From NCBI GenBank assembly GCA_020052645.1, contig JAGVOQ010000009.1, positions 1-64,000 on the forward strand: 64,000 nucleotides of DNA. Direction: 5' to 3'. This stretch comes from Candidatus Omnitrophota bacterium (GTDB lineage: Bacteria; Omnitrophota; Gorgyraeia; Velamenicoccales; Velamenicoccaceae). Every line of letters starts with the position of its first letter. Positions within the stretch are counted from its first letter, which is position 1. A model generated the notes under the pieces. The model made no database searches and was not told the DNA's origin. It saw only the letters and a list, made by a program, of their open reading frames with translations. This document shows, one piece after another, positions 44,310 to 63,342 of the stretch. The translations under genes were made by a program, and so were the position numbers.

Positions 44310-44425
44310 TCAAACAAAATAATTCCTATCCAAGCTTCTATATTGAATGGCCTCGGCAATATGTTTGACTCCAATATTTTCATCCTGCGACAGATCGCTG
44401 ATTGTACGGGCGATTTTGGTGACCC
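44310..44425 (-). pseudogene. diverged remnant of comM/yifB 3' end (second copy)
   Basis: minus strand reads [35 protein letters not shown]; intact gene end reads [35 protein letters not shown]. Confidence 0.85.
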
Positions 44426-44550
44426 CACCACTAATTTGTTGCATTTCTTTTTAATGAAGATTAAGTTTGAGCTGGTTGTTGAAATGTCTTACGTTTCTTA
44501 TTATCCTACAATGACAGGGGTATAATTTTATGATAAAATTAGTTTTATAA

Positions 44551-45928: not shown

Positions 45929-47239
45929 TTACGTAAAGAATTCTCTATCCAAGCTTCTGTATTGAATGGCCTCGGCAATATGGTTGATACCAATGTTTTC
46001 ATCCTGCGCAAGATCGCTGATCGTGCGAGCGATTTTTAAAATTTTGTCGTAAGCCCTTGCCGAAAGTCGAAATTCTTCAATGGCAGTTTTTAAGAGGTTT
46101 TGTGCCGCAGAGTCGAGAAGGCAATATTTTTTTATCTGCTGGTGGCTCATCGTGGAGTTGAAGAGGTTGGCATCATTTTTGAATCGTTCTTTTTGGATGC
46201 GCTGTGCAGACAGGACTCTTTCTTTAATCGTTTTCGAAGATTCCGATGCCTCGGTGCTTACTAATTCGTGATATTTAACGCTGGGGACTTCCATGTGGAT
46301 GTCTATCCTGTCCAAAAGAGGTCCTGAAATTTTTGTGCGGTATCTGTTGATCTCTCGCGGGGTGCATCGACACGTTTGTCTTGCTTGCCCTTGTGTACCA
46401 CAAGGGCAGGGGTTCATGGCGCATACGAGCATGAAAGAAGCCGGAAAAGTGAGTGATTTAGCAATGCGCGCCACGCGAATGGTTCCGTCTTCTAAAGGTT
46501 GACGCAACGCCTCAAGGACATTGCGATGGAACTCTGGGAGTTCATCTAAAAATAAAACTCCATTGTGGGCAAGGCTTATCTCGCCGGGTTGAGGTGTAGA
46601 TCCTCCGCCGACAAGCGCCACATCCGAAATGGTATGATGAGGCGACCGAAAAGGTCTTTGATGAATAAGCCCGATCTTGGCATCAACAAGCCCGACCGCA
46701 GAATGGATCTTTGTTGTTTCTAAAGATTCCTCTTCGCTTAATTCCGGCAAAATGGTTGTCAGCCGTTTAGCCAGCATTGTCTTGCCGCTGCCAGGAGGCC
46801 CTACAAAAAGAATATTGTGCCGTCCTGAAGCGGCGATCTCAAGGGCCCTTTTAGCAGACCACTGGCCTTTTACTTCCGAGAAATCAAGCGTAGATGAGAG
46901 GGTTTCTTGGTAAATTTTTGGATCAGGACAACAGCAAAGCGAATTTTGAGGATCAAAAAGTAACTCCGTTGTTTCTTTAAGTGTTTTTACGCCAAAGACT
47001 TTCGATTCTTTTACAATAGCTGCTTCATTGGCATTGATAAAAGGAAGGATAATATTTTTTAGCCCCTGTTTTCTTAAATACAGGGTCATGGCCAGAGCGC
47101 CTTTGATGCTTCTAAGCGCACCGTTTAAGGCTAATTCACCGATAAAATAATAATCATTGAGCTTTTCTTTGTTGATCTGGCCAGAGGCCGCAAGGATACC
47201 AAGGGCGATGGCTAAATCAAATGCAGATCCTTCTTTTTT
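45929..47239 (-). pseudogene. comM: comM/yifB Mg-chelatase-like AAA+ gene, 3' fragment (interrupted by element)
   Basis: KKEGSAFDLAIALGILAASGQI, GPPGSGKTMLAKRL, FLDELPEF, CNPCPCG; starts at element junction. Confidence 0.92.
47233..47239. repeat. left integration core (attL side), CTTTTTT
   Basis: identical 7-bp core at 63117-63123; recombining at this core restores the comM reading frame. Confidence 0.75.
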
Positions 47240-47351
47240 AGTGTAAGTCCTCATTTTGCAAATCACTCCTTATCTCTTAAATTCCCAAACAGTTACACGA
47301 TTTAGAAGTCTGACGGATTTTTTGTATTTTTAACATAAGGAGCATGACTTA

Positions 47352-47798
47352 ATGAACACAACCCTTAATGATTTGATATTTCCTTGCAAGGATTGTTCGA
47401 GACCTTGTGAGGATTACGCCAGGGCAAGAAATAAGCCCTATGCGAAACCTTGCCCGGAGTTAGAAAAGTTTCTCTGGGATTCAATTCAAAAAAAGAAATT
47501 TGATTATACAAAAGAAACAGCACGTCCATCTTCGGGTGGGAAATTAGCTTCTTTGGTTCGTTCGGCACTTATAGAAGCCAATTTAACATACAAGGAAATG
47601 ACTCTTACCGAAAAACTTTTGCAGGAAGACGATTTGAATTTCTTAGCAACTGGTAAACAAAGCAAGTTGTGGTTTAAGACGGAACAGGTCTATGAAGATG
47701 CAATGGATAACTGCTTGTTCTTTGGCGATACCAAACGCTTTGAAGAAATTATCGGGCTTAATCAAGAGCACCCGAGAGAGCGAGGAAGAAGACGATGA
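47352..47798 (+). CDS. element hypothetical protein, Cys-rich N-terminus
   Basis: ORF near left end; FPCKDCSRPCEDYARARNKPYAKPC. Confidence 0.6.
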   Translation: MNTTLNDLIFPCKDCSRPCEDYARARNKPYAKPCPELEKFLWDSIQKKKFDYTKETARPSSGGKLASLVRSALIEANLTYKEMTLTEKLLQEDDLNFLATGKQSKLWFKTEQVYEDAMDNCLFFGDTKRFEEIIGLNQEHPRERGRRR

Positions 47799-48295
47799 AA
47801 CTAATAAATGACCCAGATATTTGTTTTGCTTTTGGATTTAATGAGAATGTTTCAGAGAGGGAACGAGTAAGGATTTTATCCGAAAGCATAAGGAATATTA
47901 AAAAGAAGCTCCGCAGAGTTATTGAGATTCGTCCCGGAGGAGAACCACTCTTAGATAGGATTGGAATTAGGAAACTTAAATCTTGGAAGACGACGAAAAA
48001 CCATGTCCCGAAGCCAGAACGGATACTTGATGCTTTTAAAACAAGCGAGTGGCAAGAGAAACTCTTAGAATCCACAACAGACCCAGTTGATAGGGCGTTA
48101 CTTGATATTTATTTCACTTGTCGAAAGAAAGAGAAGGATGGAATTACCCCAAAAAGGCTTAATCAGGCTGAAATAGCCCTAGAGTTGAAGAAGATAGGCA
48201 TAGATTTAACTCAGACAGCCGTATCCAGAAGACTCCAACGCATAAAAACAGGGGGTAAACTACAACCTAATCTAATAGATGAGAGCGAGAAATAG
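47795..48295 (+). CDS. element HTH-containing protein
   Basis: RLNQAEIALELKKIGIDLTQTAVSRRLQRIK HTH-like; 4-bp overlap with upstream gene. Confidence 0.55.
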   Translation: MKLINDPDICFAFGFNENVSERERVRILSESIRNIKKKLRRVIEIRPGGEPLLDRIGIRKLKSWKTTKNHVPKPERILDAFKTSEWQEKLLESTTDPVDRALLDIYFTCRKKEKDGITPKRLNQAEIALELKKIGIDLTQTAVSRRLQRIKTGGKLQPNLIDESEK

Positions 48296-48350
48296 ATTCA
48301 CATAATTTTATTTTAATTAAATATTGATAATAACTTAAAAGGAGTTTCTT

Positions 48351-48536
48351 ATGGGAAAAATCGAGATGAGCCTGATTGAGATGGCAAGTTGCCTAGGGAA
48401 GCATCCTTCAACCATCCGTTACCACATTAGAAAAGGCAACATCATGCCTGAAACGGTTATAAAAAATAACCGAATAGCGTATGTTTTTGACTTGTTGGAT
48501 TTTGAACGTTTTAAAGAAATACTCAGAGAGGATTAA
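48351..48536 (+). CDS. small HTH protein
   Basis: SLIEMASCLGKHPSTIRYHIRKGNIMPE; AAAAGGAG upstream. Confidence 0.6.
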   Translation: MGKIEMSLIEMASCLGKHPSTIRYHIRKGNIMPETVIKNNRIAYVFDLLDFERFKEILRED

Positions 48537-48695
48537 ATGAGTAAACAACCAACCTATGAGGACTTAATGTTTGTTGTTAGCGTCTTAGAGAAAAACAAAC
48601 AAGAGATTAAAGATTTAAGGAATTTAATTTACAAGCTGATTTTCGATAAAAAAGGGAACGAAATCAACAATAGAATCACAAAGTTCATGAACTAA
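48537..48695 (+). CDS. small hypothetical protein (52 aa), not in supplied ORF list
   Basis: ATG immediately after upstream stop; MSKQPTYEDLMFVVSVLEKNKQEIKDLRNLIYKLIFDKKGNEINNRITKFMN*. Confidence 0.5.
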   Translation: MSKQPTYEDLMFVVSVLEKNKQEIKDLRNLIYKLIFDKKGNEINNRITKFMN

Positions 48696-48708
48696 TGAAG
48701 GAGGAACA

Positions 48709-49002
48709 ATGGAACAAGGACAAAAGCTACAAGGAACAGTTAAATGGTTTTCAATCCGCAAAGGGTATGGATTTATAACGACTACAGACGGTATTGATTA
48801 CTTCGTTTATTTTGAAGACGTTATGAGCCAAGATAGTTATAAATTCTTAGACGCTGGGGATAAGGTGGAGTTTTCAGTAGGAAAGGCAAGAGACGGCAGA
48901 ACAAAGGCGGTTGACGTTGTTAAAATACCATTAAAACCTATTCCACCAGAAATAGTGCAAAAGGTCTATGATTCTTTCCTTACAACGGACAGAGGTGAGT
49001 AA
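48709..49002 (+). CDS. cold-shock-domain protein
   Basis: LQGTVKWFSIRKGYGFITTTDGIDYFVYFEDV CSD signature. Confidence 0.85.
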   Translation: MEQGQKLQGTVKWFSIRKGYGFITTTDGIDYFVYFEDVMSQDSYKFLDAGDKVEFSVGKARDGRTKAVDVVKIPLKPIPPEIVQKVYDSFLTTDRGE

Positions 49003-49881
49003 ATGCCGAACAATAAACTAATTGAAGAAAAAACTCTCAAGCGAACTGGGGGATGGGCTAAGATTCCCAATTTCATTATAGATACTGGTATTTGGGCTAA
49101 GCTAAATCCAAATGCAAAGGCTGTTTATATTGTTATCCTTAGCCACGCTCATTATCAGACAGGAGTTTGTAGCCCTAATAGAGAAACAGTCGCTAAGGAA
49201 GCCGGGATTAATGTTGATGGGTTTTTTAAGGCAAGGCAGGAACTAGAAGAAGAGGGATTAATCCAGACCTGGAGACGAAAAATTAATTGCCAATGGAACT
49301 ATAAGATTATAAAAACCCCTGAAGAACAACGAGAGGCGTTAGATAAGTTACGGAGTAAATCCATAGCTAACATAGGCAAGGGTGGTAATGTACGGAATCA
49401 ATCCATAGCTTATCTCAAGGATGATAAGGGTAGATTCATCAAAAGTGATGAGAAGGTACGGAATGAATCCATACCTCCAGTACGGAATGAATCCATAACT
49501 AACCTTCACCGGAATGAATCCATAACTAAAGAGAATATAAGAATAAATACTAAAGAGAATAGCAACACAGGCTCGTCTTCGGCTGTCTTTCAGAGCCAAG
49601 CCTCGCCTGTTCTAACTGAAGACAACCTTAAAAACAGTTGTTTAGCGGTAGCTGAACCTTGCGAAGCGGGGGTCGGCGTAATCTCAGCTCCCGAGTCGAG
49701 CGTTGAACAGCTCCTCTTAAAAACGGGGTTGTTTAATGGTTCTGAGGAGCGGGTCGGTTTCAAGGTTGTGGCTTTACGAGCCGAGAGGTTTCCTAGCCGT
49801 ATGCTTTTGGGCTGGGGGGTCGCAGAAAATGATATTCCGCCTATTTTAGATGCTCTCAACTTAGAAGTCGCTAGGGTTTAA
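49003..49881 (+). CDS. winged-HTH replication-initiator-like protein (HTH_36 / lambda-O-like layout)
   Basis: GGWAKIPNFIIDTGIWAKLNPNAKAVYIVILSHAHYQTGVCSPNRETVAKEAGINVDGFFKARQELEEEGLI; central repeats VRNESI. Confidence 0.7.
   Translation: MPNNKLIEEKTLKRTGGWAKIPNFIIDTGIWAKLNPNAKAVYIVILSHAHYQTGVCSPNRETVAKEAGINVDGFFKARQELEEEGLIQTWRRKINCQWNYKIIKTPEEQREALDKLRSKSIANIGKGGNVRNQSIAYLKDDKGRFIKSDEKVRNESIPPVRNESITNLHRNESITKENIRINTKENSNTGSSSAVFQSQASPVLTEDNLKNSCLAVAEPCEAGVGVISAPESSVEQLLLKTGLFNGSEERVGFKVVALRAERFPSRMLLGWGVAENDIPPILDALNLEVARV
49349..49527. repeat. five iteron-like 20-bp repeats inside the Rep-like gene
   Basis: TACGGAATGAATCCATAnCT-type units at 49349, 49391, 49457, 49481, 49508; units are imperfect palindromes. 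Confidence 0.75.
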
Positions 49882-49925
49882 AAGAATTATGCGGAAAATA
49901 ACAAGGACAAACGAAAGGGCTAACA

Positions 49926-50075
49926 ATGAAGAGAACTGAAGCAATAGACTGGGAAGCTGAAGAACTTCGAAAAGATATCCAAAAATGGATGGATGATTAT
50001 TACATGACAAACTATGGCTTAAGCTACAGAGAATTTATCCTGATGGATGCACAAGTAAAACAGGATAATAGCTAA
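49926..50075 (+). CDS. small hypothetical protein (49 aa), not in supplied ORF list
   Basis: MKRTEAIDWEAEELRKDIQKWMDDYYMTNYGLSYREFILMDAQVKQDNS*. Confidence 0.45.
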   Translation: MKRTEAIDWEAEELRKDIQKWMDDYYMTNYGLSYREFILMDAQVKQDNS

Positions 50076-50105
50076 ACATAATTCGGCGAAAGACAAAAAG
50101 GGCAC

Positions 50106-50612
50106 ATGAGAGAATTATCACCTAAGGAACTAAGATTCATAGAGCTCTATCTGAACTCAGACAATATAGCAACCTACTGCAACGCTACAGAAAGCTACTG
50201 CCAGGCTTACCAGCTAAATAATCGTAATTTGGCGGGAGTCAAAGGGAGCCTATTGTTAAGAAAAGGTAGGGTAAAACGTTATAAGGAGGAAGTAATGAGT
50301 GAATTTAAGATTGATGTAAGCAAACACTTGAGAACACTGGACAAAAAGCTAGATTCCCTCACAGAAGAGGGCAAAATCAGCAAAGAAGAGCTCATGGCAA
50401 TAAGATTACTGGCTGAGACAGAAGGCAAGATAGGTTCAAAGAGTAATATCCAGGCTGTTCAGATTCAAGTGGGGAGCAATGGGCAGATAAACTTAGAAAC
50501 TATGGGGTTATTTACTCTCTTAGAGCTACAGAAGAAGATTGAAGAGCAGTTAGAAAATAAGTTAAAGAGCCTAAACATGAATAAGACTGAAGGAGCAGAA
50601 CAAACAAGTTAA
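50106..50612 (+). CDS. phage terminase small subunit-like protein
   Basis: LSPKELRFIELYLNSDNIATYCNATESYCQAYQ..GVKGSLLLRKGRVKRYKEEV matches the TerS N-terminal HTH pattern. Confidence 0.65.
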   Translation: MRELSPKELRFIELYLNSDNIATYCNATESYCQAYQLNNRNLAGVKGSLLLRKGRVKRYKEEVMSEFKIDVSKHLRTLDKKLDSLTEEGKISKEELMAIRLLAETEGKIGSKSNIQAVQIQVGSNGQINLETMGLFTLLELQKKIEEQLENKLKSLNMNKTEGAEQTS

Positions 50613-51316
50613 AACTTATTTGGTATAGGATTAGAGAGTATTTGTAAGCACAGAATTGTTTAGGGGACTATTTTGGTTTAGGAAGGCTTTAGTTTTAGCT
50701 TTAGCTCCCAGTAATACTTAAAGCTCTTTATCTCTGATACTGAGGTTGATACTGTCTCTCATTCGATAGGATATAGATATAAAGCATACCCACCCACAGG
50801 AACCCACCCATAGGAAACAATAACAACATAGTAGTAAAAATATTATAGTTCAGGTTCAGTCGGTTAATAATAATCTAAGTTTAGACCCACCCGGCGGTAC
50901 CCAGGGCATACCCCCCAGCCGAGGGGTGTGTAGAACATATTACGATTCGGATATTTTTATATCAGAAACCAAATTCCCGGGCTACAAGCTACTTCGAGAA
51001 CTTGACATGTTTGTTTTTCTGAGCACAAAACAAGCCTTCTGTGGGGTCTTTAAGCCATATTGCTACGCCTAGAAATTACAAGCTCAATTCCAATCCAAAT
51101 TTTGCAATAGTTTTTCAAAATCCTTTAGAACTTTTTTAGCAACATCACACTTTTTGAGTTCTGCAAAACTCCCTCACAAAAAAGGGCACTATTTCGCCTA
51201 GGATGCCCCAGGTTGCATCGAGGTCTTCTAAACACACTGGGAGACGATTTAAAGGGCGTGAGCACAAAATCAGTTTTGAGTTCGTTGATTGTAGGGCAAA
51301 TTTCGAGAGGTGAGTT

Positions 51317-51877
51317 TTAAACGATTGGTATGCGACGAATACTATTCTCAAAATCGGGGATGTTGTCTGGGTAAAACACGATATTTATTCCGTTTGGGTC
51401 AACGGCGCTTTTCTGCTTTAGTGCTTGTGCGCAATATGGTTTCCCATAAAACAGATGAAAGAATTTCTCTTTCTTTTGGTCTGGGTCAGGTGTCGGGTCA
51501 ACTCCCTCTGATTCACAGATAGAGATTGTGTCAATGCAGGATATAGGTTTTAGGATGAGAGCGTAATGTGCATGGGCAGACTTCATTGCTTCAGCGCCGT
51601 AGTTTTTCTCAACTTCCATCTTAGCGGTGCTTGATGCGATTGAATAAAAATAATTTCCAGTTCCCGCCACGCTACCTAAACCTTGCCGACATTTCTCTTG
51701 AAACTGCTCAATCGATAAATTGTTGGGATTTTTGGCATTTCTATTTTCCTGACCCGTAGGGATATCTAGGGCGTATGTCCCTATGGTGGTTCTATAGATT
51801 TTTTCTCCTGGTTTTAGGATAAAAGTATGCTTTGATATATCTATTTTTCTTAAGTCAATATCGTCTTTTGTTCGCAT
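51317..51877 (-). CDS. element hypothetical protein (possible cargo)
   Basis: 186-aa ORF; no firm family. Confidence 0.5.
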   Translation of the reverse strand: MRTKDDIDLRKIDISKHTFILKPGEKIYRTTIGTYALDIPTGQENRNAKNPNNLSIEQFQEKCRQGLGSVAGTGNYFYSIASSTAKMEVEKNYGAEAMKSAHAHYALILKPISCIDTISICESEGVDPTPDPDQKKEKFFHLFYGKPYCAQALKQKSAVDPNGINIVFYPDNIPDFENSIRRIPIV

Positions 51878-51899
51878 CTTTGTTCATTGCAGGTCAGAT

Positions 51900-52370
51900 T
51901 TACTTACTCGTGTAGTCATTAAGTAGTTTCTTCTTCTGTTCATCAAACTCGCCTTTGGTGATAAGTCTGTCGGATAGTAACTTATTAAGAGTTTTAATTT
52001 TGGTTTCTAATTCATTATTGTTCGTCTGGACATCTATTTTCTGGTCGGATTTTACATCGCCAATAACTTTTATAACTTGTGTTGGGTCTTTGGTGCTGTC
52101 AAAGTCTCCTTTTGCCCCAAATGCGGCGACTTTACCTTCTTGGATACAAACAAAGTAAGGTTCGTAATTTGCCCATTGAGCTGGTTCAGCCGATGGCACA
52201 AGGCGATAATTCAAATATTCTTTATCTCCTATTGCCGCTGTGCTGTCGGGTTTCCCCATCTTCTTTATAACTTCTTCTTTGCTCATTCCAATGCTAATTT
52301 GGTTAAGTTGACTAGCAGTAGCACAACCATATAAACCTAAACATAACAATAAAGTAATTAGTTTTTTCAT
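51900..52370 (-). CDS. BamE/SmpA-like lipoprotein with C-terminal SHOCT-like motif
   Basis: lipobox LYGC; IGMSKEEVIKKMGKPD; LNKLLSDRLITKGEFDEQKKKLL. Confidence 0.7.
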   Translation of the reverse strand: MKKLITLLLCLGLYGCATASQLNQISIGMSKEEVIKKMGKPDSTAAIGDKEYLNYRLVPSAEPAQWANYEPYFVCIQEGKVAAFGAKGDFDSTKDPTQVIKVIGDVKSDQKIDVQTNNNELETKIKTLNKLLSDRLITKGEFDEQKKKLLNDYTSK

Positions 52371-52387
52371 CTTCGCCTCCGATTAGG

Positions 52388-52747
52388 TCAATGAGGAATC
52401 AATTTTTTCACGAACAAATAAAGCAGTGTTGAAATACTTAATGCAACTCCGTAAAAAACGATGGAATTTTTTAGGGTGTGGTTTCGGGTAGAATTTGATT
52501 TATTTTTATAGATTTTACCTGAACCCAGGTCTTTAATAAATTCGTCTACCGCTTTGTCCATTGATTCTTGAAATTCTTTATATTTTTCTTCACCCAGTGT
52601 TTTTCTGAGTTCATTGTCTCTTTCTCTGAAGTCTTTTTCTTGTTTCTCCTTTGTCCTCTTTAGTCCTTCCGCAGTTCTTGTGATGTAAACATTAAGAAAA
52701 TGGAAAAGCAATAGAACAAAGCAAAGAGAAGCAAGAATTAGTACCAT
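52388..52747 (-). CDS. small membrane protein
   Basis: TM segments at both ends. Confidence 0.5.
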   Translation of the reverse strand: MVLILASLCFVLLLFHFLNVYITRTAEGLKRTKEKQEKDFRERDNELRKTLGEEKYKEFQESMDKAVDEFIKDLGSGKIYKNKSNSTRNHTLKNSIVFYGVALSISTLLYLFVKKLIPH

Positions 52748-52865
52748 ATTCGCCTCCAGGGTTAATTAAAAACATTCTATCACTCAAGGAGACTTATGCC
52801 AGAACAAAATATAAATCAATTTAAAAACAATCAAACAAAACGAAATATAACGAAAGGTAAGACAA

Positions 52866-53720
52866 ATGAGTAATTGGGGAGACAATTTTGCAAATGCTTT
52901 CTTGCATAGTAGGGAAATGGCACAGCAAAGAAGCATGGTTCAAATGAGGATTGACGCCGAACTCGGAACGAGAGGTTATGAGAGGATGGAAGGCTCTGAC
53001 ATTAAAGACTATCTTGTAAATCAACAACGTCCTTCATATTCCACAAAAGATGAAGGTTCAGCCGTCATACCTACTGATTCAAAACTTACCAACGGTCAGG
53101 TTTTAAATAAGACAGGTCAGGTAGTCGGTGAATATGCCCCTGGTTATGAACCTAAACCTTTGAAGGATACTGAGCAGACGGGTAGCGTCATTCGAGTCGG
53201 GAATAATTATTATCGATGGAACGAAGACCTGGCAAAAAGAATCTCAGGTCAGGCAATTAAGCCGACAGTAAAAGACCTTAATAAATCTTTCTCTGGAGTG
53301 GCTAAAACTTTTAATCTTCCAGGCGGAAATTTAACCGTTACAAATAAACAAGGTGTTTCCCATGTCGATATTGTACCTACACAAGAGCAGACTCAGCAAC
53401 CCATCGCTCAACCTGTTTCTTCGGCTCCGAATGATTTAGAAATGAGAAAATCTATGATGCAACAGGCTGTTCAAAACGCCGTAAAGCAGGGTGCTTCTCA
53501 GGATGAAATCATGGCTGGGATTCAGGAAGAAGGCTTTAATCCAAATGAATTTATGAATCTATCTATGGCACAACCTCAAGATAATCTTCGTCAATATGCT
53601 TTAAATGGTGTTTTAGGTGGAGTGGGTTTTTCTCAAATGAGTAATGATGATATTAAACGTGTTCTTATTAATCAACTCGAACGTAAAGTAAAAAAATACA
53701 CAGGAAGGGCGGTTGTATAA
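52866..53720 (+). CDS. phage-like structural/accessory protein
   Basis: SD GAAAGG; operon with 53721 gene. Confidence 0.5.
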   Translation: MSNWGDNFANAFLHSREMAQQRSMVQMRIDAELGTRGYERMEGSDIKDYLVNQQRPSYSTKDEGSAVIPTDSKLTNGQVLNKTGQVVGEYAPGYEPKPLKDTEQTGSVIRVGNNYYRWNEDLAKRISGQAIKPTVKDLNKSFSGVAKTFNLPGGNLTVTNKQGVSHVDIVPTQEQTQQPIAQPVSSAPNDLEMRKSMMQQAVQNAVKQGASQDEIMAGIQEEGFNPNEFMNLSMAQPQDNLRQYALNGVLGGVGFSQMSNDDIKRVLINQLERKVKKYTGRAVV

Positions 53721-56264
53721 ATGGGAAAGTTTTTAGAAAAATATCTACAACCAGGGAAGGGTATCAAAGATTATTTATTTGAGCCCATCTCTAAACAACT
53801 AACAGGAAAATCATTAGGAGAACGAGCAGACCTTCTTAACAAGGCAGGAAATGCTATCGCTGATAAAGCCGGAATGAGTGGTAAACCTTTATCCGTTACC
53901 GAGGCATTTATTAAACAACTCCCTTCAGCAGTGGGTCAGGCTTTAATTCAAACAGCAGACCTATCACCAGCAGATGTGGCTTTGATGGCTGGGACTGCCG
54001 GAGTAGCAAGAATCCCTGTTGCAGGGACTACCGTCGGAGCAATAGCAAAGACAGTTCCTGTTGGGAGAGGTTTCGTCCAAGGCGTTAAAGAGTTAGGCAA
54101 GACAGCCCAAGTGGTAGAACAAGCCCTCCCGGGAGCCATCACGCCAGAGCCGATAGTTAAAGAACCGCCGATTCGGACTCCTGAGCAATTCGCAGAGAAT
54201 ATTAACCTAACAAAATTTCCTGAAGATGTCCGAGGAAAGGTCTATGAAGTTATTACTGATAAACCTTCCATAGGCAAGACGCCAAAGGTTTCCGATGAAG
54301 AACTCTTTAAGATGGCGAGTGAATTAAAAGGGACTCCGACTATAAACTATCTTTCAAACTTAAAAGAAGGAACGGTTGAAGCTGAAGCCTTAAAGCTAAG
54401 ACAAGGAAACACTCAGCTAATCAGAGATGTATTAAAACAAGACCTTACTCAACTAAAGGACGGTCTCGATGGATTGATTGAAGACGGACTTACTAAACAA
54501 AGAAAAGTCGCATCTATCTTCGGTCGTGGTTTACGACAGCAGAAACTCCCGGCTGATGAACAGCAAGGGATGGCATTTTTGATTGACGATAAAATAACAG
54601 CTATCAAGAGAGACCCTATTCTTGGAAAAGATGCGGAGCTAATTGGTTCTTTAACAAAATTAAGAGACACAGTTGTTGATAAAGAGTTTAATCCTACGAT
54701 GTGGAATAAAGTCTATTCTGGCTGGATGAACTCTATTTTAAGTAATCCTATGACCCACATTGTCAATACTGCAAGTAATACGTTATTCACTCTGGCGAAA
54801 ATCCCTGAGAAGTTTGCAAGTGCTATGTGGGATTTACCAATTTCAGCTGTAACGGGCAAGAGAACTCAATACTTCGGTGAAATTCCAGCAATGGTTAAGG
54901 GCTTAATGAGCAAAGAGAAACTACCCGTCGAGCTTATGCCGGGTTCCAAGATTGAACATTTCTCTCAACCAATAAAAGGAATGGCGGGAAAGATAATAGG
55001 TACCCCGGGGAATCTATTGCAACTTGAGGACAATCTTGCAAAGAACACAATAGGCAGAATGGAGTTATATGCTCAAAGGTATGCTGGAAAGACAGGAGCA
55101 GAATTAACAGAGGCTGTTCAAAACGAACAACTCTATAGGACTTTTCAGAATGAACCTAACGCAATAGCAAAGGCATTGATGCACGTAAGAGACAAAGTGC
55201 CCGGACTTCGTTATGTAGTTCCATTCTTAAAGACACCAGCGAATCTGATTGACCGGGGACTAGAAAGAACCCCTTTAGTTCTTGGAAAGATTCTTTATAA
55301 AGGAGCCACTAAGACATACACCCAGGAAGAATTATCAAAAGACTTGGGGCTTTTAAGTCTCGGTTCAACACTTGCAGGATGGATTGCCTGGCAAAAGGTA
55401 AAAGGAAACATAACAGGCAACGCTCCGGAGAAACCAGCAGATAGAGATGCTTTCTATAGGCAAGGCAAGAAACCAAATGCAATAAAAGTCGGTGAATATT
55501 GGGTTCCGTTAGACAGGCTTGAGCCAGTAGGTTCAGCTTTTTCAATCATCGCTAACCTAATACAAGATTATCAGAATAGCGATAAAGACCTTTCTTCGGA
55601 AAAAGTCTTAGATGCCGTTGGTGGATTAGCAAAGACCTTAACGAATAAGACCTATCTGTCAGGAATGACGAACTTTATTAAGGCAACTTCAGACCCGGAG
55701 ATGTATGGAGCAAGTTGGCTCCGTAGAATTTCTTCGGGAGCGGTGCCTAATGCTTTGAGTTTTTTAGCTCAAATTAAAGACCCGTATTATAGAGAAGCGA
55801 ATAGCGTTCTTGATTATCTCAAAGCAAAGGTGCCTGGGTTATCAGAGACTCTTCCTACTAAACTTAATGCCTTTGGTGAACCAGTTAAACGAGATGTCTT
55901 AAATATCGGAAAAGAGAAACCTTCTCAACTAGAGACTTCTATTGCTGATACTCCAATAGGTTTTCCGTCGAAGATGGCGGGGAAAGTGAAGATGTCCCCA
56001 GATACTTATCACAAGGTTTTAATGCTCTCTGGCGGGACGATTAAAAAAGACATAGAAACTTTGGCGAGTAATCCAGAGTTTAGGAAGCTACCTCAAGCTG
56101 ACCGGGAGAAGATTGTCGCTGACGTTGTGGCACGTGCCAGGAGAGACGTAAAAAAGAAAGTCCTTAGTAATCTTGTTCAACCAATAAAGCCATCACATGC
56201 AGAATTGGAAAAGTTCAGAGTATTCGGTAAGAGTGATTTTTATAAAAAGTATGGCACAAAATAA
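53721..56264 (+). CDS. large phage internal-virion/ejection-like protein (847 aa)
   Basis: WMNSILSNPMTHIVNTASNTL and DRDAFYRQGKKPNAIKVGEYWVPLDRLEPVGSAFSIIANL resemble large podovirus-like internal proteins. Confidence 0.5.
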   Translation: MGKFLEKYLQPGKGIKDYLFEPISKQLTGKSLGERADLLNKAGNAIADKAGMSGKPLSVTEAFIKQLPSAVGQALIQTADLSPADVALMAGTAGVARIPVAGTTVGAIAKTVPVGRGFVQGVKELGKTAQVVEQALPGAITPEPIVKEPPIRTPEQFAENINLTKFPEDVRGKVYEVITDKPSIGKTPKVSDEELFKMASELKGTPTINYLSNLKEGTVEAEALKLRQGNTQLIRDVLKQDLTQLKDGLDGLIEDGLTKQRKVASIFGRGLRQQKLPADEQQGMAFLIDDKITAIKRDPILGKDAELIGSLTKLRDTVVDKEFNPTMWNKVYSGWMNSILSNPMTHIVNTASNTLFTLAKIPEKFASAMWDLPISAVTGKRTQYFGEIPAMVKGLMSKEKLPVELMPGSKIEHFSQPIKGMAGKIIGTPGNLLQLEDNLAKNTIGRMELYAQRYAGKTGAELTEAVQNEQLYRTFQNEPNAIAKALMHVRDKVPGLRYVVPFLKTPANLIDRGLERTPLVLGKILYKGATKTYTQEELSKDLGLLSLGSTLAGWIAWQKVKGNITGNAPEKPADRDAFYRQGKKPNAIKVGEYWVPLDRLEPVGSAFSIIANLIQDYQNSDKDLSSEKVLDAVGGLAKTLTNKTYLSGMTNFIKATSDPEMYGASWLRRISSGAVPNALSFLAQIKDPYYREANSVLDYLKAKVPGLSETLPTKLNAFGEPVKRDVLNIGKEKPSQLETSIADTPIGFPSKMAGKVKMSPDTYHKVLMLSGGTIKKDIETLASNPEFRKLPQADREKIVADVVARARRDVKKKVLSNLVQPIKPSHAELEKFRVFGKSDFYKKYGTK

Positions 56265-56277
56265 ACAGGAGGAATAA

Positions 56278-56946
56278 ATGGAGAACGAAAACGTTGTAGA
56301 GAACCAACCTCAACAAGAGACACCGCAGGTAGAGCAACCCCCAACCATTGAGGAGCAAGAAAAGCGAATAGAATATTTTCTGAAAAAGAAAAATCTATAT
56401 CATCTGAAAGAGAACGTGCTTAACGAAGTTGCAAATGTCGAAAAAGAAATGGAAAAAGTTGGTATAGACCCAAAGAGTGTTTCCTTGCAAGACCTTAAAC
56501 AGGGACGAGCTTTACCAGAAACGGTTCAGATTGCTTTCGAGAAGCTAGAGAAGGCAAGAATTAGAGCCACAGGTTCTCTTGCACACGCTGTTAGAGAGGC
56601 TGATAAATCAGGTGAATTGGTGAACTTCAAAGACGAATACAACAATGTCCAGAAACAAATTGTCGCCGAGGAACAAAGGAAGAAGCATCTCTCCGAGGCT
56701 TATGAAAAAATGCAGAATCATCCTACAAAAGAAAATCGCATGGAATATGTGAAAATTGGGGTGGGCTTAGATACAAAGCCTTTTGGGACGTTACGTGCAA
56801 AGGATGATGTTGACCTCGTGAAGAGACACCAAGAAGGTATGCAAGGAATTAGAGAAAGAATAAATGAGGAAAATAGAAGAATGACTGCGATGAAACCTGG
56901 ATTCTCTAAATTACGTGGCGACCAAAGACCAATTGGAGAAAGATAA
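56278..56946 (+). CDS. coiled-coil phage-like protein
   Basis: ORF, SD GGAGGA, operon position. Confidence 0.55.
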   Translation: MENENVVENQPQQETPQVEQPPTIEEQEKRIEYFLKKKNLYHLKENVLNEVANVEKEMEKVGIDPKSVSLQDLKQGRALPETVQIAFEKLEKARIRATGSLAHAVREADKSGELVNFKDEYNNVQKQIVAEEQRKKHLSEAYEKMQNHPTKENRMEYVKIGVGLDTKPFGTLRAKDDVDLVKRHQEGMQGIRERINEENRRMTAMKPGFSKLRGDQRPIGER

Positions 56947-57332
56947 TGTCAGAAGGAATGGTGAAGTCGGCAGTTCAAACGATGCGGGAGAATATCGCTT
57001 CCAGAGCACCACTCCCCCAAGGGTATGTCCCAAGCGAACCTTATCCAAAGCTCTTTAATATGCTTGAAGTCTGGGGCTCTGACACAGACGATAGAGAAGT
57101 TCATGAGAAGGCGAAGTTTATTTATGAAGCCCTGAAAGGGGAAGGAGAACCTCTCGAGAAGTTGGTTTCTCTTTTTACTGAACTAGGAGCAACTCCTGTT
57201 GGGGACACGAAATTAAATCGGGTCTATAGGTATTTAAAACTCAAGAATGAAGCAAAAAAAGTCATGCAACACTTTGACGTTCTCGCAGGGGAAATGAACT
57301 CTTTAAAGAAAGACGATAAGAGCGAAGAATAA
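56946..57332 (+). CDS. hypothetical protein
   Basis: 1-bp overlap with upstream gene. Confidence 0.5.
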   Translation: MSEGMVKSAVQTMRENIASRAPLPQGYVPSEPYPKLFNMLEVWGSDTDDREVHEKAKFIYEALKGEGEPLEKLVSLFTELGATPVGDTKLNRVYRYLKLKNEAKKVMQHFDVLAGEMNSLKKDDKSEE

Positions 57333-57339
57333 AAGAACC

Positions 57340-57404
57340 GGGGCTACCCTCCTTACCTCGGATGGGTTTCATTCTCTTGGCTCTCCGAGGTTTGCCCCTT
57401 TTTT
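57340..57404 (+). terminator. long-stem intrinsic terminator closing the 52866-57332 operon
   Basis: GGGGC..CCTCGG..CCGAGG..GCCCCTTTTTT. Confidence 0.7.
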
Positions 57405-57501
57405 GAAAAAATCTCTCTCTAGGATTGTCTAAGTTACATTATTTCACGTCGAACCTTACTATATCACCCCATGTTTTGAGCACAAACAACGGAGTTGATT
57501 A

Positions 57502-57666
57502 ATGCCGAGAAAAAAGAAAGTATCAAAGTATCCAGTAGGATTAATGACAGAAGAAGAACGAAGACTATTTAGAATCTATACAACGATATGCCCGACTTGT
57601 GAATCAAGAAATACTTGTAGTATTTGCCCTGAGGGGTTAGAGAAGAGTGCTTGGGGGTGTTATTGA
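57502..57666 (+). CDS. small Cys-rich (putative zinc-binding) protein, not in supplied ORF list
   Basis: MPRKKKVSKYPVGLMTEEERRLFRIYTTICPTCESRNTCSICPEGLEKSAWGCY*. Confidence 0.45.
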   Translation: MPRKKKVSKYPVGLMTEEERRLFRIYTTICPTCESRNTCSICPEGLEKSAWGCY

Positions 57667-58148
57667 GGAACGACAACAGAGGGGTCTTTCTTATATCTGT
57701 CAATAAAATCAATATAATTATCTACAATTCCAAAAAGATATTTTGGATATTCTTCATTCGGAAATTCTTCCTTCCATAATTTAGGGTTGAACCAAACCCA
57801 TATTTTGAGTCTTTCCATAAGTGAATCATGTATTGAGTTTAATTCTATGGAGGATGGTTGCTTTTCGCCACGTTTCTCAAGTTGGTCTTTAAAGTAAAGA
57901 ATTAGCCCATTGACTACTTTTTCTCTTTCCCATTGTATTTTGAGCTTGGGTTCAAGAGTAAGATATAAGAACGCAAAGGTGTATAGAATTATCAACAGCC
58001 ACCACGAATGCCCTGCTAACTGAATTTTGGTGATTGCATTATCTAAAGCTCCAATCAGAGTGAGGGGTACGAGAATAGCAAGAGTTGCTATTGGGATGTA
58101 TGGTATCGCTAGAAGAAGATTAATCCAAAACTTTCTTTCTTTATTCAT
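57660..58148 (-). CDS. membrane protein
   Basis: MNKERKFWINLLLAIPYIPIATLAILVPL; overlaps the upstream gene's stop. Confidence 0.5.
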   Translation of the reverse strand: MNKERKFWINLLLAIPYIPIATLAILVPLTLIGALDNAITKIQLAGHSWWLLIILYTFAFLYLTLEPKLKIQWEREKVVNGLILYFKDQLEKRGEKQPSSIELNSIHDSLMERLKIWVWFNPKLWKEEFPNEEYPKYLFGIVDNYIDFIDRYKKDPSVVVPQ

Positions 58149-58705
58149 CTTTGCCTCAATGTTCTTATCGCCCAAATGGTGAAGCGGATGAGCCAAAAAA
58201 GTGGATAAAGCAAACAGGAGAATACCTTTACTCTGCTATCTGCGTAGTCATGCAAAGCCTCCAAGAGCATTACTTCTTCTTTAGTAATGTAACTATATTT
58301 TACCTTTACACATAAATCGGCAATGATTCCAGATAGTTGATAGATAATGAAAGATATGAGTAGAAATAGGAGTAGAATTAATCCTTCTCTCGCCACTATC
58401 CGCCTGTAGTTTTTTTTCGTTTGTGGCTGTATGGGGATTTGTTGTGTAATAGTTGTTTCGTCGCTTAAGTTGAAATGACCCAAAATATACGGGGCAATAG
58501 GGGAAAATTGTAAACCAACGCTTATCGTTCTTTTATTCTGCTTTTCGGCTTGTATTATTACGGTCGCTATGGCATTTGCAGTTGTTGAAGCAAGAAGACC
58601 ACCGTTTTTTACTATTTCTTCTTGGATGTATTCTGTAGCCCTTATTGCGGAAATTGTTTCTGGGAGTTTAATCTCAAAAATATTTGATTCTTTCTGTTCG
58701 CTCAT
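58145..58705 (-). CDS. membrane protein
   Basis: two TM regions. Confidence 0.5.
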   Translation of the reverse strand: MSEQKESNIFEIKLPETISAIRATEYIQEEIVKNGGLLASTTANAIATVIIQAEKQNKRTISVGLQFSPIAPYILGHFNLSDETTITQQIPIQPQTKKNYRRIVAREGLILLLFLLISFIIYQLSGIIADLCVKVKYSYITKEEVMLLEALHDYADSRVKVFSCLLYPLFWLIRFTIWAIRTLRQR

Positions 58706-58715
58706 TTATGTGTCC

Positions 58716-58925
58716 TTATGGTTTTTGAATAGATAAAACAGGCATGGCACGACACCATTTTCCGTTTGTGGGGTCTCCGATTTGGATAGTTCCTGTTATC
58801 CTATTGAACCGATAGGTGTAAAGTCCGCTCCCTACCGATTGATAAAGCTCATATTTTGGAAAACAAATATAGAATAATATAGCCACTAACATCGCCATAA
58901 CGAATAAATAGATTAGTTTTTTCAT
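58716..58925 (-). CDS. small membrane/exported protein
   Basis: N-terminal hydrophobic segment; ATGA-like operon spacing. Confidence 0.45.
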   Translation of the reverse strand: MKKLIYLFVMAMLVAILFYICFPKYELYQSVGSGLYTYRFNRITGTIQIGDPTNGKWCRAMPVLSIQKP

Positions 58926-58926
58926 A

Positions 58927-59127
58927 TCATTTCTCCTTCCACCACATATTAAGAGGTTTCACTTCTTTATTCTTCAGCCACCTATCAATCTTCTCCAACT
59001 CAAACTTCACCAAGCCACCAATCTTATAGTGTGGAATCCTTTGTTCGTGAACCCATCGATATAGAGTGCTTTTCTTGACGTCTAAGTATTCGGCGAGAGC
59101 GTCCACTCCTACAAAACGTTTAGGCAT
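58927..59127 (-). CDS. AlpA/excisionase-family HTH protein (candidate Xis)
   Basis: VDALAEYLDVKKSTLYRWVHEQRIPHYKIGGLVKFELEKIDRWL HTH_17 signature. Confidence 0.8.
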   Translation of the reverse strand: MPKRFVGVDALAEYLDVKKSTLYRWVHEQRIPHYKIGGLVKFELEKIDRWLKNKEVKPLNMWWKEK

Positions 59128-59134
59128 CTTTGCC

Positions 59135-59488
59135 TTAAAGTTTTATTTCTAGGAATTTTCCCTGAGTGTTCCAAGTTGGAATATATTGTTTCTTTTCTGT
59201 AAGTTCAATTTTAAGTTTTTTAAGGATAGAGCGACAGGCAATAGCTGAGGTGGATGCTTCTTGAGGATTAGTTGCTTTTAATTTATAGGAGTTTTGACTC
59301 ATTTCTTTGACGGGCTTAATTGCCAGGGAGCGTTTCTTATCGTCGTAGAGCAAATCAACAAATTTTACGTTCTTAAAATGGAGATTCATTACCGCAGAAT
59401 TAAGGTAGATGATTCCCCTGACCCCAAAACTAACTACGGGTTTATCGTGTGATGCTGTCCAATGCTTCTTTAAAACTTCGTATCCCAT
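59135..59488 (-). CDS. element hypothetical protein
   Basis: first gene of minus operon, divergent from XRE gene. Confidence 0.5.
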   Translation of the reverse strand: MGYEVLKKHWTASHDKPVVSFGVRGIIYLNSAVMNLHFKNVKFVDLLYDDKKRSLAIKPVKEMSQNSYKLKATNPQEASTSAIACRSILKKLKIELTEKKQYIPTWNTQGKFLEIKL

Positions 59489-59541
59489 AAAAACAATACT
59501 ACCACAGCGAAAGAGAAGTGCAAGTTTTTTTTAAAAATACC

Positions 59542-59569
59542 TTGACAAGATTAAATTCTAGTGTAAACT
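59542..59569 (+). promoter_or_regulatory. sigma70-type promoter in divergent regulatory region
   Basis: TTGACA-16-TAAACT; repeated AGTGTAAAC words and AAACA-taag-TGTTT dyad downstream. Confidence 0.45.
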
Positions 59570-59896
59570 CTTTGTTAAAAGGTGAAACGAAAGTGTAAAC
59601 ATAAGTGTTTGTAATGTGGCAATAGCACAGATTCGAATCATTGCTCTCAGATTTGCTGAAAGACTTAAAGAATACCACCCATTTGTGTGGATATATTTTT
59701 TATGAGCATAATAAGGAAGCAAAATATTTTAAAAAATTTTCGTGCTCAAATTTTGAATTTTGAGCTTAAAACAGGTTGCTAATATATGAGGATAGTGAAA
59801 GGTTTTTGGGGGGGTAATGGTGAATAGGTGCTTGTAGCACCCTTTTTTTACCAAAAAACATTGCATTTCAAATCAAACAGAAAGGATGGTGAGAAT

Positions 59897-60115
59897 ATGT
59901 ATAGAGACGCATTCAATTTAACGCTTTACCGTAAACGTGCGGGTCTTACGCAGGGGCAACTCGCAGAAAAGCTGGGTATCAAGAGGCAAGTCCTTGCTTT
60001 ATGGGAAAAGGGCGAGTGTTATCCACGCATTGAGACTGCGGTTGATATTGGGCGAGTGCTTGATACCGACCCAAGCTTGATATTTCCAGAGATGTTTAAA
60101 GTTATACCAAAATAG
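59897..60115 (+). CDS. XRE-family HTH regulator
   Basis: LYRKRAGLTQGQLAEKLGIKRQVLALWEKGECYPRIETAVDIGRVL. Confidence 0.85.
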   Translation: MYRDAFNLTLYRKRAGLTQGQLAEKLGIKRQVLALWEKGECYPRIETAVDIGRVLDTDPSLIFPEMFKVIPK

Positions 60116-60137
60116 GACGAATAAATAAATAACAAAA

Positions 60138-60596
60138 ATGGAGGAATTGATGAATTTTTTGTTTAAAGAAGCCTTGATTAGGCATTATTGTGATGCAAGA
60201 AACACTCTTGAAAACCTTCCAGCCTATAAAAGAGAAGAAAAAATTAAAATGTCTCTACTTAGGGAAAAGCAAATTAATGAACTTGATAAGGCATTGGCAT
60301 TAACTTCTAAACTCGCTGAAAAATACAAGGGGTTGGTGCCAAACAATGTCTTTTGTGATGCTTCAGAAATAACCTTGAGTAATGCTTTATCAGAAATTAA
60401 TTCAACAAAAAGAAATGAGTTTTTTGAAGAAAAGAAAATAGCTTCAGATGGAATTATAAGCCTCATTACAGATAAAGGCTATTTTATGGAATATGCAAAA
60501 TTTATTTATCAGGCTGAATTAGTAGATAAAATCGAACAAGAATTGAAACAAGCCAATTTAAACCCGGAAGAAGTTTATCAGGATTCGAAAAAATAG
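60138..60596 (+). CDS. element hypothetical protein
   Basis: ORF, SD GGAGG. Confidence 0.5.
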   Translation: MEELMNFLFKEALIRHYCDARNTLENLPAYKREEKIKMSLLREKQINELDKALALTSKLAEKYKGLVPNNVFCDASEITLSNALSEINSTKRNEFFEEKKIASDGIISLITDKGYFMEYAKFIYQAELVDKIEQELKQANLNPEEVYQDSKK

Positions 60597-60608
60597 GAGA
60601 ATGACCAA

Positions 60609-61187
60609 ATGACCAATATTATGATTGAGAGCCCTATCTGTGGGCTTACCAGAACGAGCACGAAAGACCAGGATGGGGAATCGACTCTTTTTGCACTGAA
60701 AGGTTATGCAGAAAGAAATGGCTTCACCTTCCAGGAAATTTATTTTGACAGGGGATATTCTGGATGCAACACAGACCGCCCGGCTTATCAAAGAATGCTT
60801 GAGGACATGAGGACGGGGAAGTTTAAAACCTTGATAGTGCCTAAGCTCGACAGGCTCGGAAGGTCTATAGCAAACCTAGTGGATTTAATGGGCGAATTGA
60901 AGAATAAAAAAATTCGCCTCATCTCTTTAGGGGACGGTGTTGATACTGCCCAGGACGACCCTATGACGAGAGCTTTTTGGCAAATGCTTGGTGTATTTGC
61001 AGAGCTTGAAGCTGAAATGATTAGAATGAGAGTTAAAGCGGGGCATGAAGTAGCAAAAGCCAATGGACAACACATAGGACGACCAAAAGGCTCAGGCGAT
61101 AAGAGAAAACGTTCTGTAAGTGGTTATCAACTTCGCTATAAAGGCACAACACCAGAACAGCGTAAACTTGGAAAGCGGGGTATTTAA
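60609..61187 (+). CDS. small serine recombinase (resolvase/invertase)
   Basis: TRTSTKDQ catalytic Ser, FDRGYSGCNTDRPAYQRML, VPKLDRLGRS, FAELEAEMIRMR. Confidence 0.9.
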   Translation: MTNIMIESPICGLTRTSTKDQDGESTLFALKGYAERNGFTFQEIYFDRGYSGCNTDRPAYQRMLEDMRTGKFKTLIVPKLDRLGRSIANLVDLMGELKNKKIRLISLGDGVDTAQDDPMTRAFWQMLGVFAELEAEMIRMRVKAGHEVAKANGQHIGRPKGSGDKRKRSVSGYQLRYKGTTPEQRKLGKRGI

Positions 61188-61510
61188 TGGCAAGTATCTA
61201 CGATTCCGACATGGTTAGATTGCCAAGTATTCACGTTCCTGAGTGGCAAAAACATAAGTTAGATTCATGGCTCAGGGTTTACAACTGGAATTACTCTGAT
61301 TTTATTCGTGAAATAATATTTGAGCTTAGGGTAAGTTTCGGGACTGCAACGCCTAATTTAGTAAATCCCCGTCGTGATTGTAAAGAAGCAGTTGGAAGAG
61401 TGATAGACACCATTATTGATAGGGCTGGACTCGAAGGAAAAATTGAAAGCAAGACGCCTGAGTTTGTGATTAAAGGGCAGAAAGGTAGTAGGCAATATGG
61501 AAAACGTTAA
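61187..61510 (+). CDS. element hypothetical protein
   Basis: TAATG overlap with resolvase. Confidence 0.45.
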   Translation: MASIYDSDMVRLPSIHVPEWQKHKLDSWLRVYNWNYSDFIREIIFELRVSFGTATPNLVNPRRDCKEAVGRVIDTIIDRAGLEGKIESKTPEFVIKGQKGSRQYGKR

Positions 61511-61596
61511 TAAAAGAGCGGATGAAGATAAAGAGAAGCACTTTTGGGAACTTTATAAAAAAATAGTTGAGCGTAGAATAGCCAAAAACCTAAACA

Positions 61597-63072
61597 ATGG
61601 AAACAAAGAAAAGAGCCAGTCTATATCTTCGGGTCTCAACGCTTGAACAAGCTGTTTCAGAGCGTACTTCATTAGAGACACAGCGTGAGCGAGGAATTGC
61701 TCTTGCTGTTTCAAAGGGATTTTTGCCTCCGAGAGATGAAGATATTTACACAGACGCTTCAAGCGGGTTTAGTCTTGATGAGCGTCCTGCTTTGGAAAAA
61801 TTAAGAAATAAAATAAAAAATAAACTTGTTGATGCTGTAATCGTTTGGAAAATTGACAGATTGGCTCGTAACACCCTGGACTCACTGACAATAGCCAAAG
61901 AGTTTAAGGATAATGGGGTAGGTATTTATTCTGTAGTTGATTCTATTGATACGTCTAGCAAAGAAGGTGACATATACTTTAAGTTTCTTTCAATTTTTGC
62001 CGAGATGGAAAGGGAAGCTATCCGAGAGCGAATGATGTCTGGAAGATATGCAAAAACTTCAAGAGATGGAACCAATTTCGGTGCTGAGGCTCCCTTTGGA
62101 TATAAGACAGAAAATAAGAAATTCATAATCATAGAAGAAGAAGCTAGAATCATTTCTTCAATTTATGAACTTTATTTGCAACTTAAGAGCGTTCAGAAAG
62201 TTGCTAGGGTATTAAAAGACAGTGGAACATCAGCCAGGATAAACCTCGACGATAAACAAGTTAGAAGAATCTTAAGAAATCCAAAATATAGAGGACAGCA
62301 CAAGGTCAAAGATAAAATATATCCTGGTTCTCATGAGCCGATTATCAGTTCCGATATTTATGACAGGGTTCAGGATTTGCTTAACAACAATTTTCAAAAA
62401 CATAAAAAGATGGGTAAGGTGGCTCCGGGTTTTATTTTAAGAGACGTAGCTATTTGTGGACACTGTGGTAGGCAGATGGTTCAAATTCAAACACAAAGCA
62501 CGATTCAGGGAAAGAGACTTTTGTATTATGGTTGTGCTCTTAGAAGGAAAAGAAAGAATCGGAACCCTAAAAACAATTGCGTTCATAAGGTGGGTCATAA
62601 AAAATTTGAATTTGAAGAAGAGGCTATTGATACAATTAGCCATCACATAAACGAATCAATGAAGAATGAGGATTATCTATTACGGCATATCTACACGACG
62701 TCTAGGCAAGAAGTTGACCGCATCAAGGGGCAGATTCAGACCCAGGAGAGGTCATTAGATTCCAGAAAAAAGGCTAAGGAGAGGGCATTAAAGCTGTTTA
62801 CTTTAACTGGTGATTCTGACGCAGAGATTCTTTTTAGAAATAGCATCGGGGAGATTAGGGAAATTGAGGATAGAATTAAAAGATTGAGGGTTGACCTTGA
62901 GAAGGCAAAGAGCTCTCGTGAGGATTTAAAGGAGAAAAAGAGTTTTTACGAAAACTTTATGGACAACTTGAAGGAGGCAGATGACGAAGAGAAGAGAGAT
63001 TTGATTAATAGCGTTGTAAGTTCTTTAAAATCATATAATTCTGGAAAAATCGAGATTGAATATGCTTTTTAA
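61597..63072 (+). CDS. large serine recombinase (integrase)
   Basis: SLYLRVSTLEQ catalytic Ser, WKIDRLARN, recombinase domain, zinc ribbon GHCGRQMVQIQ..YYGCALRRK..NNCVH, C-terminal coiled coil; adjacent to right junction. Confidence 0.95.
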   Translation: METKKRASLYLRVSTLEQAVSERTSLETQRERGIALAVSKGFLPPRDEDIYTDASSGFSLDERPALEKLRNKIKNKLVDAVIVWKIDRLARNTLDSLTIAKEFKDNGVGIYSVVDSIDTSSKEGDIYFKFLSIFAEMEREAIRERMMSGRYAKTSRDGTNFGAEAPFGYKTENKKFIIIEEEARIISSIYELYLQLKSVQKVARVLKDSGTSARINLDDKQVRRILRNPKYRGQHKVKDKIYPGSHEPIISSDIYDRVQDLLNNNFQKHKKMGKVAPGFILRDVAICGHCGRQMVQIQTQSTIQGKRLLYYGCALRRKRKNRNPKNNCVHKVGHKKFEFEEEAIDTISHHINESMKNEDYLLRHIYTTSRQEVDRIKGQIQTQERSLDSRKKAKERALKLFTLTGDSDAEILFRNSIGEIREIEDRIKRLRVDLEKAKSSREDLKEKKSFYENFMDNLKEADDEEKRDLINSVVSSLKSYNSGKIEIEYAF

Positions 63073-63116
63073 GGAGGTGGAACGAGGGGTAAGAGAATAT
63101 TGCAACATCAGGACAC

Positions 63117-63123
63117 CTTTTTT
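63117..63123. repeat. right integration core (attR side), CTTTTTT
   Basis: same 7-bp core as 47233-47239. Confidence 0.75.
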
Positions 63124-63342
63124 TACATTAGCAGGGGCAAGATTAACAGTGATTTTATCTGCGGGGTAGTCAAATCCGCTATTTTTGATGCTAGAGCGGA
63201 CTCTTTCTTTACTTTCTTTAATGGCAGAGTCAGGAAGGCCAACAATGGATATGCATGGCAGTCCTCTAGAGACATCAACTTCGATCTCCACAGGATAAGC
63301 GTCAATCCCTAAGATTCCAAAACTATGCAACTTTGCTAACAT
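63124..63342 (-). pseudogene. comM: comM/yifB 5' fragment (interrupted by element)
   Basis: MLAKLHSFGILGIDAYPVEIEVDVSRGLPCISIVGLPDSAIKESKERVRSSIKNSGFDYPADKITVNLAPANVK, canonical ComM/YifB N-terminus. Confidence 0.93.

Follow-up and report, generated by a model that had tools for sequence, protein, structure and literature searches.

The first 64,000 nucleotides of contig JAGVOQ010000009.1 of a Candidatus Omnitrophota bacterium (GenBank assembly GCA_020052645.1), referred to here as the window, contain an integrated element of about 15.88 kb that is, on its sequence, likely to be a phage satellite, and which encodes, in a block with its terminase small subunit (TerS), a homologue of the large internal virion (ejection) protein of podophages. 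A satellite had been proposed in a preliminary description of this DNA, and is the reading best supported by the gene content, the exact ends of the element and the existence of a second element with the same core. Both complete elements are mobile and lack a full set of virion genes, as expected of satellites in general. Together they suggest a family of satellites that would use a podovirus helper, select their own DNA and probably supply part of their own ejection apparatus, the last of these claims being less sure than the assignment to phage satellites. In the window, the block common to both elements comprises four genes (lengths in amino acids, aa):

50106-50612, plus strand: TerS (phrog_51, E = 4.9e-9; PF03592, 1e-4, under Pfam's own cut-off)
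52866-53720, plus strand: 284-aa core protein beside the ejection protein (second-element homologue, 27% identity over 268 aa, E = 8e-22)
53721-56264, plus strand: internal virion (ejection) protein of 847 aa, homologue of the podophage large ejection protein (phrog_6651, E = 1.6e-24)
56278-56946, plus strand: 222-aa core protein after the ejection protein (counterpart at the same position in the second element)

The 847-aa protein is 57% identical, over 640 uninterrupted aa, to a 1465-aa protein of IMG/VR contig IMGVR_UViG_3300044712_001016 (G148), a podophage encoding terminase, portal, capsid, tail and internal virion proteins, and 22-30% identical to the internal virion proteins of marine podophages. 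The other viral relatives (L020, L021 and L059-L064) are longer proteins; several adjoin podophage tail genes, and those with readable neighbours belong to podophages. A PDB sequence search with the ejection protein returned no meaningful match. Podophages keep their ejection proteins inside the head and use them to build the channel through which DNA enters the cell (PMC8954989, PMC11784390), and infectivity requires them (PMC8954989). In a six-sequence tree, where two long outgroup branches leave the deeper order unsure, the ejection proteins of the two satellites are joined with support 95/96, and podophage G148 is their nearest relative. The gene had been overlooked in the preliminary description, and to state that the element has no structural gene would be wrong: the reported absence of capsid, portal and large terminase subunit (TerL) genes stands after profile searches of the element proteins against Pfam and PHROGs, but the ejection protein is itself encoded by a virion gene. 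These searches likewise gave no match to tail proteins among the open reading frames (ORFs) of the element, and no lytic gene was seen. When the ORFs of G148 were compared with the element, the ejection protein was the sole gene in common, and no fragment of a TerL, portal or capsid gene was found.

A profile search for the ejection protein in 392 genomes of the phylum/class recovered a protein of similar size in just one other genome, giving two elements in total. The second element, on contig PLNN01000041.1 of Candidatus Omnitrophota fen_1320, measures 14.3 kb and is bounded by 19-bp repeats of a tRNA-Asp 3' end. It encodes a tyrosine integrase, AlpA-like and XRE regulators, a small serine recombinase, a P4/D5-like primase, a cold-shock protein, TerS and proteins of 296, 872 and 247 aa, and no TerL, portal or capsid gene was seen in it with Pfam and PHROGs. 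The satellite reading is strengthened because this precisely bounded element keeps the same core in the absence of those three genes. The common block runs TerS, 284/296-aa protein, ejection protein (847/872 aa) and 222/247-aa protein, with blastp identities between the elements of 34% for TerS, 58% for the ejection protein and 27% (E = 8e-22) for the 284/296-aa pair; the 222/247-aa pair occupies the same position and is 32% identical in global alignment, although blastp does not detect it. Outside the block, the small serine recombinases and the cold-shock proteins are each 32% identical. The two host genomes are distantly related, belonging to different families of the class. Since the integrase and the replication gene differ between the elements while the block is kept, TerS, the two flanking genes and the ejection protein constitute the conserved core. 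The serine integrase pointed out in the preliminary description is present in the window, but it is not a trait of the family and was rejected as a group-defining character, given the tyrosine integrase at tRNA-Asp in the second element. Within the core, the ejection genes of the two elements differ at 35/26/63% of codon positions 1/2/3, with silent sites saturated and no stop codons, and this pattern of differences in intact frames shows that the ejection protein has been under selection over a long time.

The ends of the window element were fixed by comparison with the intact comM genes of five relatives, which break exactly at the ends of both pieces of the gene in the window. The element (approximately 47233-63123, about 15,884 bp) interrupts the chromosomal comM at codon ~78 (...LAPANVKK|EGSAFDL...), and joining the flanks by script restores a single comM ORF of 509 aa, in agreement with the ~15.9-kb element described earlier. 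The element occupies a serine-integrase site within comM, and a short shared core is what is expected of a serine integrase. The junctions and the interrupted gene are arranged as follows:

45929-47242, minus strand: C-terminal part of comM, the host gene (yifB-like Mg-chelatase family ATPase; 67-59% identity to intact relatives)
47233-47239, no strand assigned: left attachment core CTTTTTT (comM orthologues and flank join)
63117-63123, no strand assigned: right attachment core CTTTTTT (comM orthologues and flank join)
63118-63342, minus strand: N-terminal part of comM (comparison with intact comM)

At 44316-44426 (minus strand), 1.5 kb past the gene, a partial second copy of the 3' end of comM (37 aa, 78% identical) looks like the remnant of an older insertion or duplication.

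The assignment of TerS, also made in the preliminary description, is upheld both by sequence (phrog_51 and PF03592) and by genomic context. Three proteins match phrog_51, namely the TerS of the two elements and a relative encoded by the phage contig L053 (IMG/VR 3300035660_001176), which is 38% identical in the N-terminal part. The call survives because this relative adjoins TerL (phrog_2, 6e-33), located 1.2 kb after it. The linkage in L053 is better evidence for TerS than the predicted fold, which consists of helices, then a beta hairpin, then a helix, in a model too uncertain for a fold search (predicted local distance difference test score, pLDDT, of 42); a PDB sequence search with TerS gave no meaningful match. 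The L053 contig also encodes a small serine recombinase and AlpA-like and primase-like genes.

In both elements terS is followed by 0.7-0.9 kb of gene-free DNA, and a motif of 42 nt common to the two, GCAAAA-TCCCTCACAAA..AGGGCA..CG.CTAGGAT, provides a candidate packaging (pac) site, present in the window at two positions:

50348-50373, plus strand: copy of the candidate pac motif inside terS, TCCCTCACAGAAGAGGGCA (repeat and pattern search)
51163-51204, plus strand: candidate pac/TerS-binding motif, 42 nt, in non-coding DNA after terS (conserved in the second element)

The copy within terS can form a hairpin. For the two stretches that follow terS, the motif score was reached by 0/2000 dinucleotide shuffles. 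The pattern TCCCTCACA-N2-10-AGGGCA, which was derived from these same sites and is hence a lead rather than proof, occurs twice in the genome carrying the window and once in the second genome, every time at terS, and the reversed control pattern has 0 matches in either. The motif is absent from podophage G148 and from the other phage loci examined, which fits a satellite-specific pac site.

The genes for integration, regulation and replication include those named in the preliminary description, and Pfam and PHROGs confirmed the integrase, the excisionase, the XRE regulator and the Rep-like gene at their positions, the five iterons inside the latter having been recovered by repeat search:

48351-48536, plus strand: small helix-turn-helix protein, MerR/excisionase-like (weak; Pfam/PHROGs)
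48709-49002, plus strand: cold-shock-domain protein (PF00313, 1.7e-16)
49003-49881, plus strand: replication initiator, DnaD/O-like (phrog_186, DnaD-like, 2.8e-15)
49348-49532, plus strand: five 26-nt iterons within the rep gene, candidate origin
58927-59127, minus strand: AlpA-like excisionase/activator (PF12728, HTH_17, 1.4e-13; phrog_66, 4.2e-11)
59897-60115, plus strand: XRE-type regulator (ATG at 59897, ORF 59828-60115; PF01381, HTH_3, 2e-11)
60609-61187, plus strand: small serine recombinase with invertase/resolvase catalytic domain (PF00239, 5.8e-37)
61597-63072, plus strand: large serine integrase (phrog_95, E = 3e-101; PF00239, PF07508 and PF13408)

No relatives of the Rep protein were found in IMG/VR or phage records. 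The small serine recombinase, which has the catalytic domain alone, is kept in both satellites as well as the integrase (60609-61187 in the window; L019, 12641-13183, in the second).

These genes outline a cycle in which infection by a podovirus helper would lead to excision of the element by the integrase and the AlpA-like protein, followed by replication from the iterons. The satellite TerS would then recognise its own pac-like site at terS and recruit the TerL of the helper, filling helper capsids with satellite DNA. The satellite ejection protein, probably together with its two neighbours, would be built into these particles in place of the proteins of the helper, and satellite DNA would be delivered by an apparatus that is partly satellite-encoded. 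That the ejection apparatus of the helper is replaced in this way, yielding hybrid virions with a helper exterior and a satellite delivery machine, is put forward tentatively, as a possibility that falls somewhat short of probable. Such virions would give a satellite control over the manner of DNA entry or over the cells that receive its DNA.

Several observations weigh against this scheme. Counterparts of the 284- and 222-aa proteins occur in the second satellite, and the two would be the candidates for gp14- and gp15-like partners, but no homology to phage ejection proteins or their partners was detected in either. The genome carrying the window (about 90% complete) yielded no podovirus portal by profile and no intact helper prophage, and the one true TerL found there, on contig C26, sits in an unrelated terminase island. 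No element-like contig was found in scans of IMG/VR, a negative that is nevertheless compatible with packaging in helper particles. Podophage G148 is not linked to any Omnitrophota host and has a different kind of TerS. The candidate pac motif is unexceptional across the whole elements (blastn E = 0.19). Furthermore, only two elements are known, both from draft genomes, and the helper, induction, packaging and virion steps are predictions from sequence. The helper may be virulent or absent from the assembly, as may also happen with other satellites (PMC10803314, PMC11389934).

The search for a helper brought further loci to light. Podovirus portals were found by profile in 12/392 genomes of the class. 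In the second genome, a contig of 3.3 kb (C31; L042/L050) carries a podovirus-type portal (phrog_156, 1e-69), as a fragment only and a possible trace of a helper. The island on C26 (L017, 189-15589) encodes a serine integrase, type III restriction genes, a ParB-methyltransferase, a gene in the position of TerS and TerL (phrog_38, 6e-98), and no head or tail genes were seen in it. A TerL profile match on C31 in the genome carrying the window proved to be PhoH and was discarded as false, and a capsid profile search of that genome was uninformative, neither it nor its control giving a match.

The main alternative to a delivery function is that the ejection homologue acts in interference or exclusion, as a decoy that poisons the virions of the helper or of rivals or that blocks later entry by phages. 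Satellites often hinder their helpers (PMC6092414), and the satellite proteins, at 847-872 aa, fall short of the 976 aa or more of the complete phage relatives that were found, a reduced length that could suit a dominant-negative form. The uninterrupted match to the phage protein over 640 aa and the conservation of a linked partner protein argue against such a role, which appears unlikely, and the element would in any case remain a satellite, so that the two interpretations overlap. A defective podovirus prophage, stripped of head, portal and TerL and left with integrase, regulators, rep, TerS and ejection genes, would account for the phage origin of TerS and of the ejection protein, and podophages that encode both an integrase and proteins of this sort do exist (MW202801). 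Decay is nevertheless difficult to reconcile with the same short gene set, clean attachment ends and intact ORFs in two families of the class, with strong purifying selection on the ejection gene, and with the lack of any TerL, portal or capsid fragment in the comparison with G148, making this origin improbable. Lastly, TerL being normally easy to recognise, an autonomous virus with unrecognised structural proteins is very improbable: several ORFs have no family match, but the unassigned ones span just 54-284 aa, neither element has a TerL match, and the model of the 284-aa protein, uncertain and not used for a fold search (pLDDT 46), has no obvious capsid layout.

The remaining genes of the window element are mostly accessory or without assignment:

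47352-47798, plus strand: protein of 148 aa without convincing family match
47795-48295, plus strand: protein of 166 aa with a C-terminal winged helix (ArgR-like DNA-binding, weak; PF01316, 1.4e-5, under cut-off)
51317-51877, minus strand: accessory protein of 186 aa, no family match
51900-52370, minus strand: accessory lipoprotein-like gene (BamE-like/SHOCT, weak; Pfam)
52388-52747, minus strand: accessory membrane protein of 119 aa with two hydrophobic stretches
56946-57332, plus strand: unassigned protein of 128 aa (Pfam/PHROGs)
57660-58196, minus strand: accessory, membrane-protein-like (Pfam/PHROGs)
58145-58705, minus strand: accessory, membrane-protein-like (Pfam/PHROGs)
60138-60596, plus strand: unassigned protein of 152 aa (Pfam/PHROGs)
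61187-61510, plus strand: protein of 107 aa, no match

The minus-strand accessory genes fill two slots (51317-52747 and 57660-58925) on either side of the ejection block, where the second element has none. Defence-system profiles gave nothing convincing among the accessory genes.

Among known systems, the closest in general layout are the phage-inducible chromosomal islands (PICIs), including the Staphylococcus aureus pathogenicity islands, to which the preliminary description had likened the element. As in PICIs, there is an integrase, an AlpA-type regulator, a rep gene and origin of its own, TerS and no capsid, portal or TerL; integrase, replication module and regulators follow the conserved order, with AlpA-like and XRE regulators both present, and the lengths of 15.88 kb and 14.3 kb were counted within the size of PICIs (about 12-15 kb). 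Unlike PICIs, the element has a serine integrase, resides in another phylum and carries a virion ejection gene within a conserved block. One published criterion for PICIs is that they carry no structural genes of phages (PMC6092414), and since the 847-aa internal virion protein breaks this criterion, the element should not be filed among them. Capsid-forming PICIs (cfPICIs) resemble it in supplying part of the virion, but they form their own capsids (PMC11389934), whereas the element has an ejection protein and no capsid match. Judged by its genes, the element is thus a variant of phage satellite that is neither PICI nor cfPICI. Phage-inducible chromosomal minimalist islands (PICMIs), P4, PICI-like elements (PLEs), virion-encapsidated integrative mobile elements (VEIMEs) and tycheposons are likewise small integrated elements dependent on a helper phage, PICMIs having an int-alpA-prim organization and no capsid-remodelling genes (PMC10803314). 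In the limited open-access literature consulted, no report was found of ejection proteins in these or any other satellites, nor any earlier description of phage satellites from Omnitrophota. On the phage side, the closest counterparts are podophage ejection proteins (T7 gp14/15/16 type; phrog_6651). The large internal virion proteins of cyanophage- and roseophage-type podophages and of G148 are homologues of the 847-aa protein, but the satellite version is shorter and lies on an element devoid of head and tail genes. If the proposed function is correct, DNA delivery joins head size and packaging as the third stage of the phage cycle that satellites can seize. The TerS-ejection block, conserved despite exchange of the integrase and the replication genes, provides a search key for further satellites of this kind in uncultured phyla.

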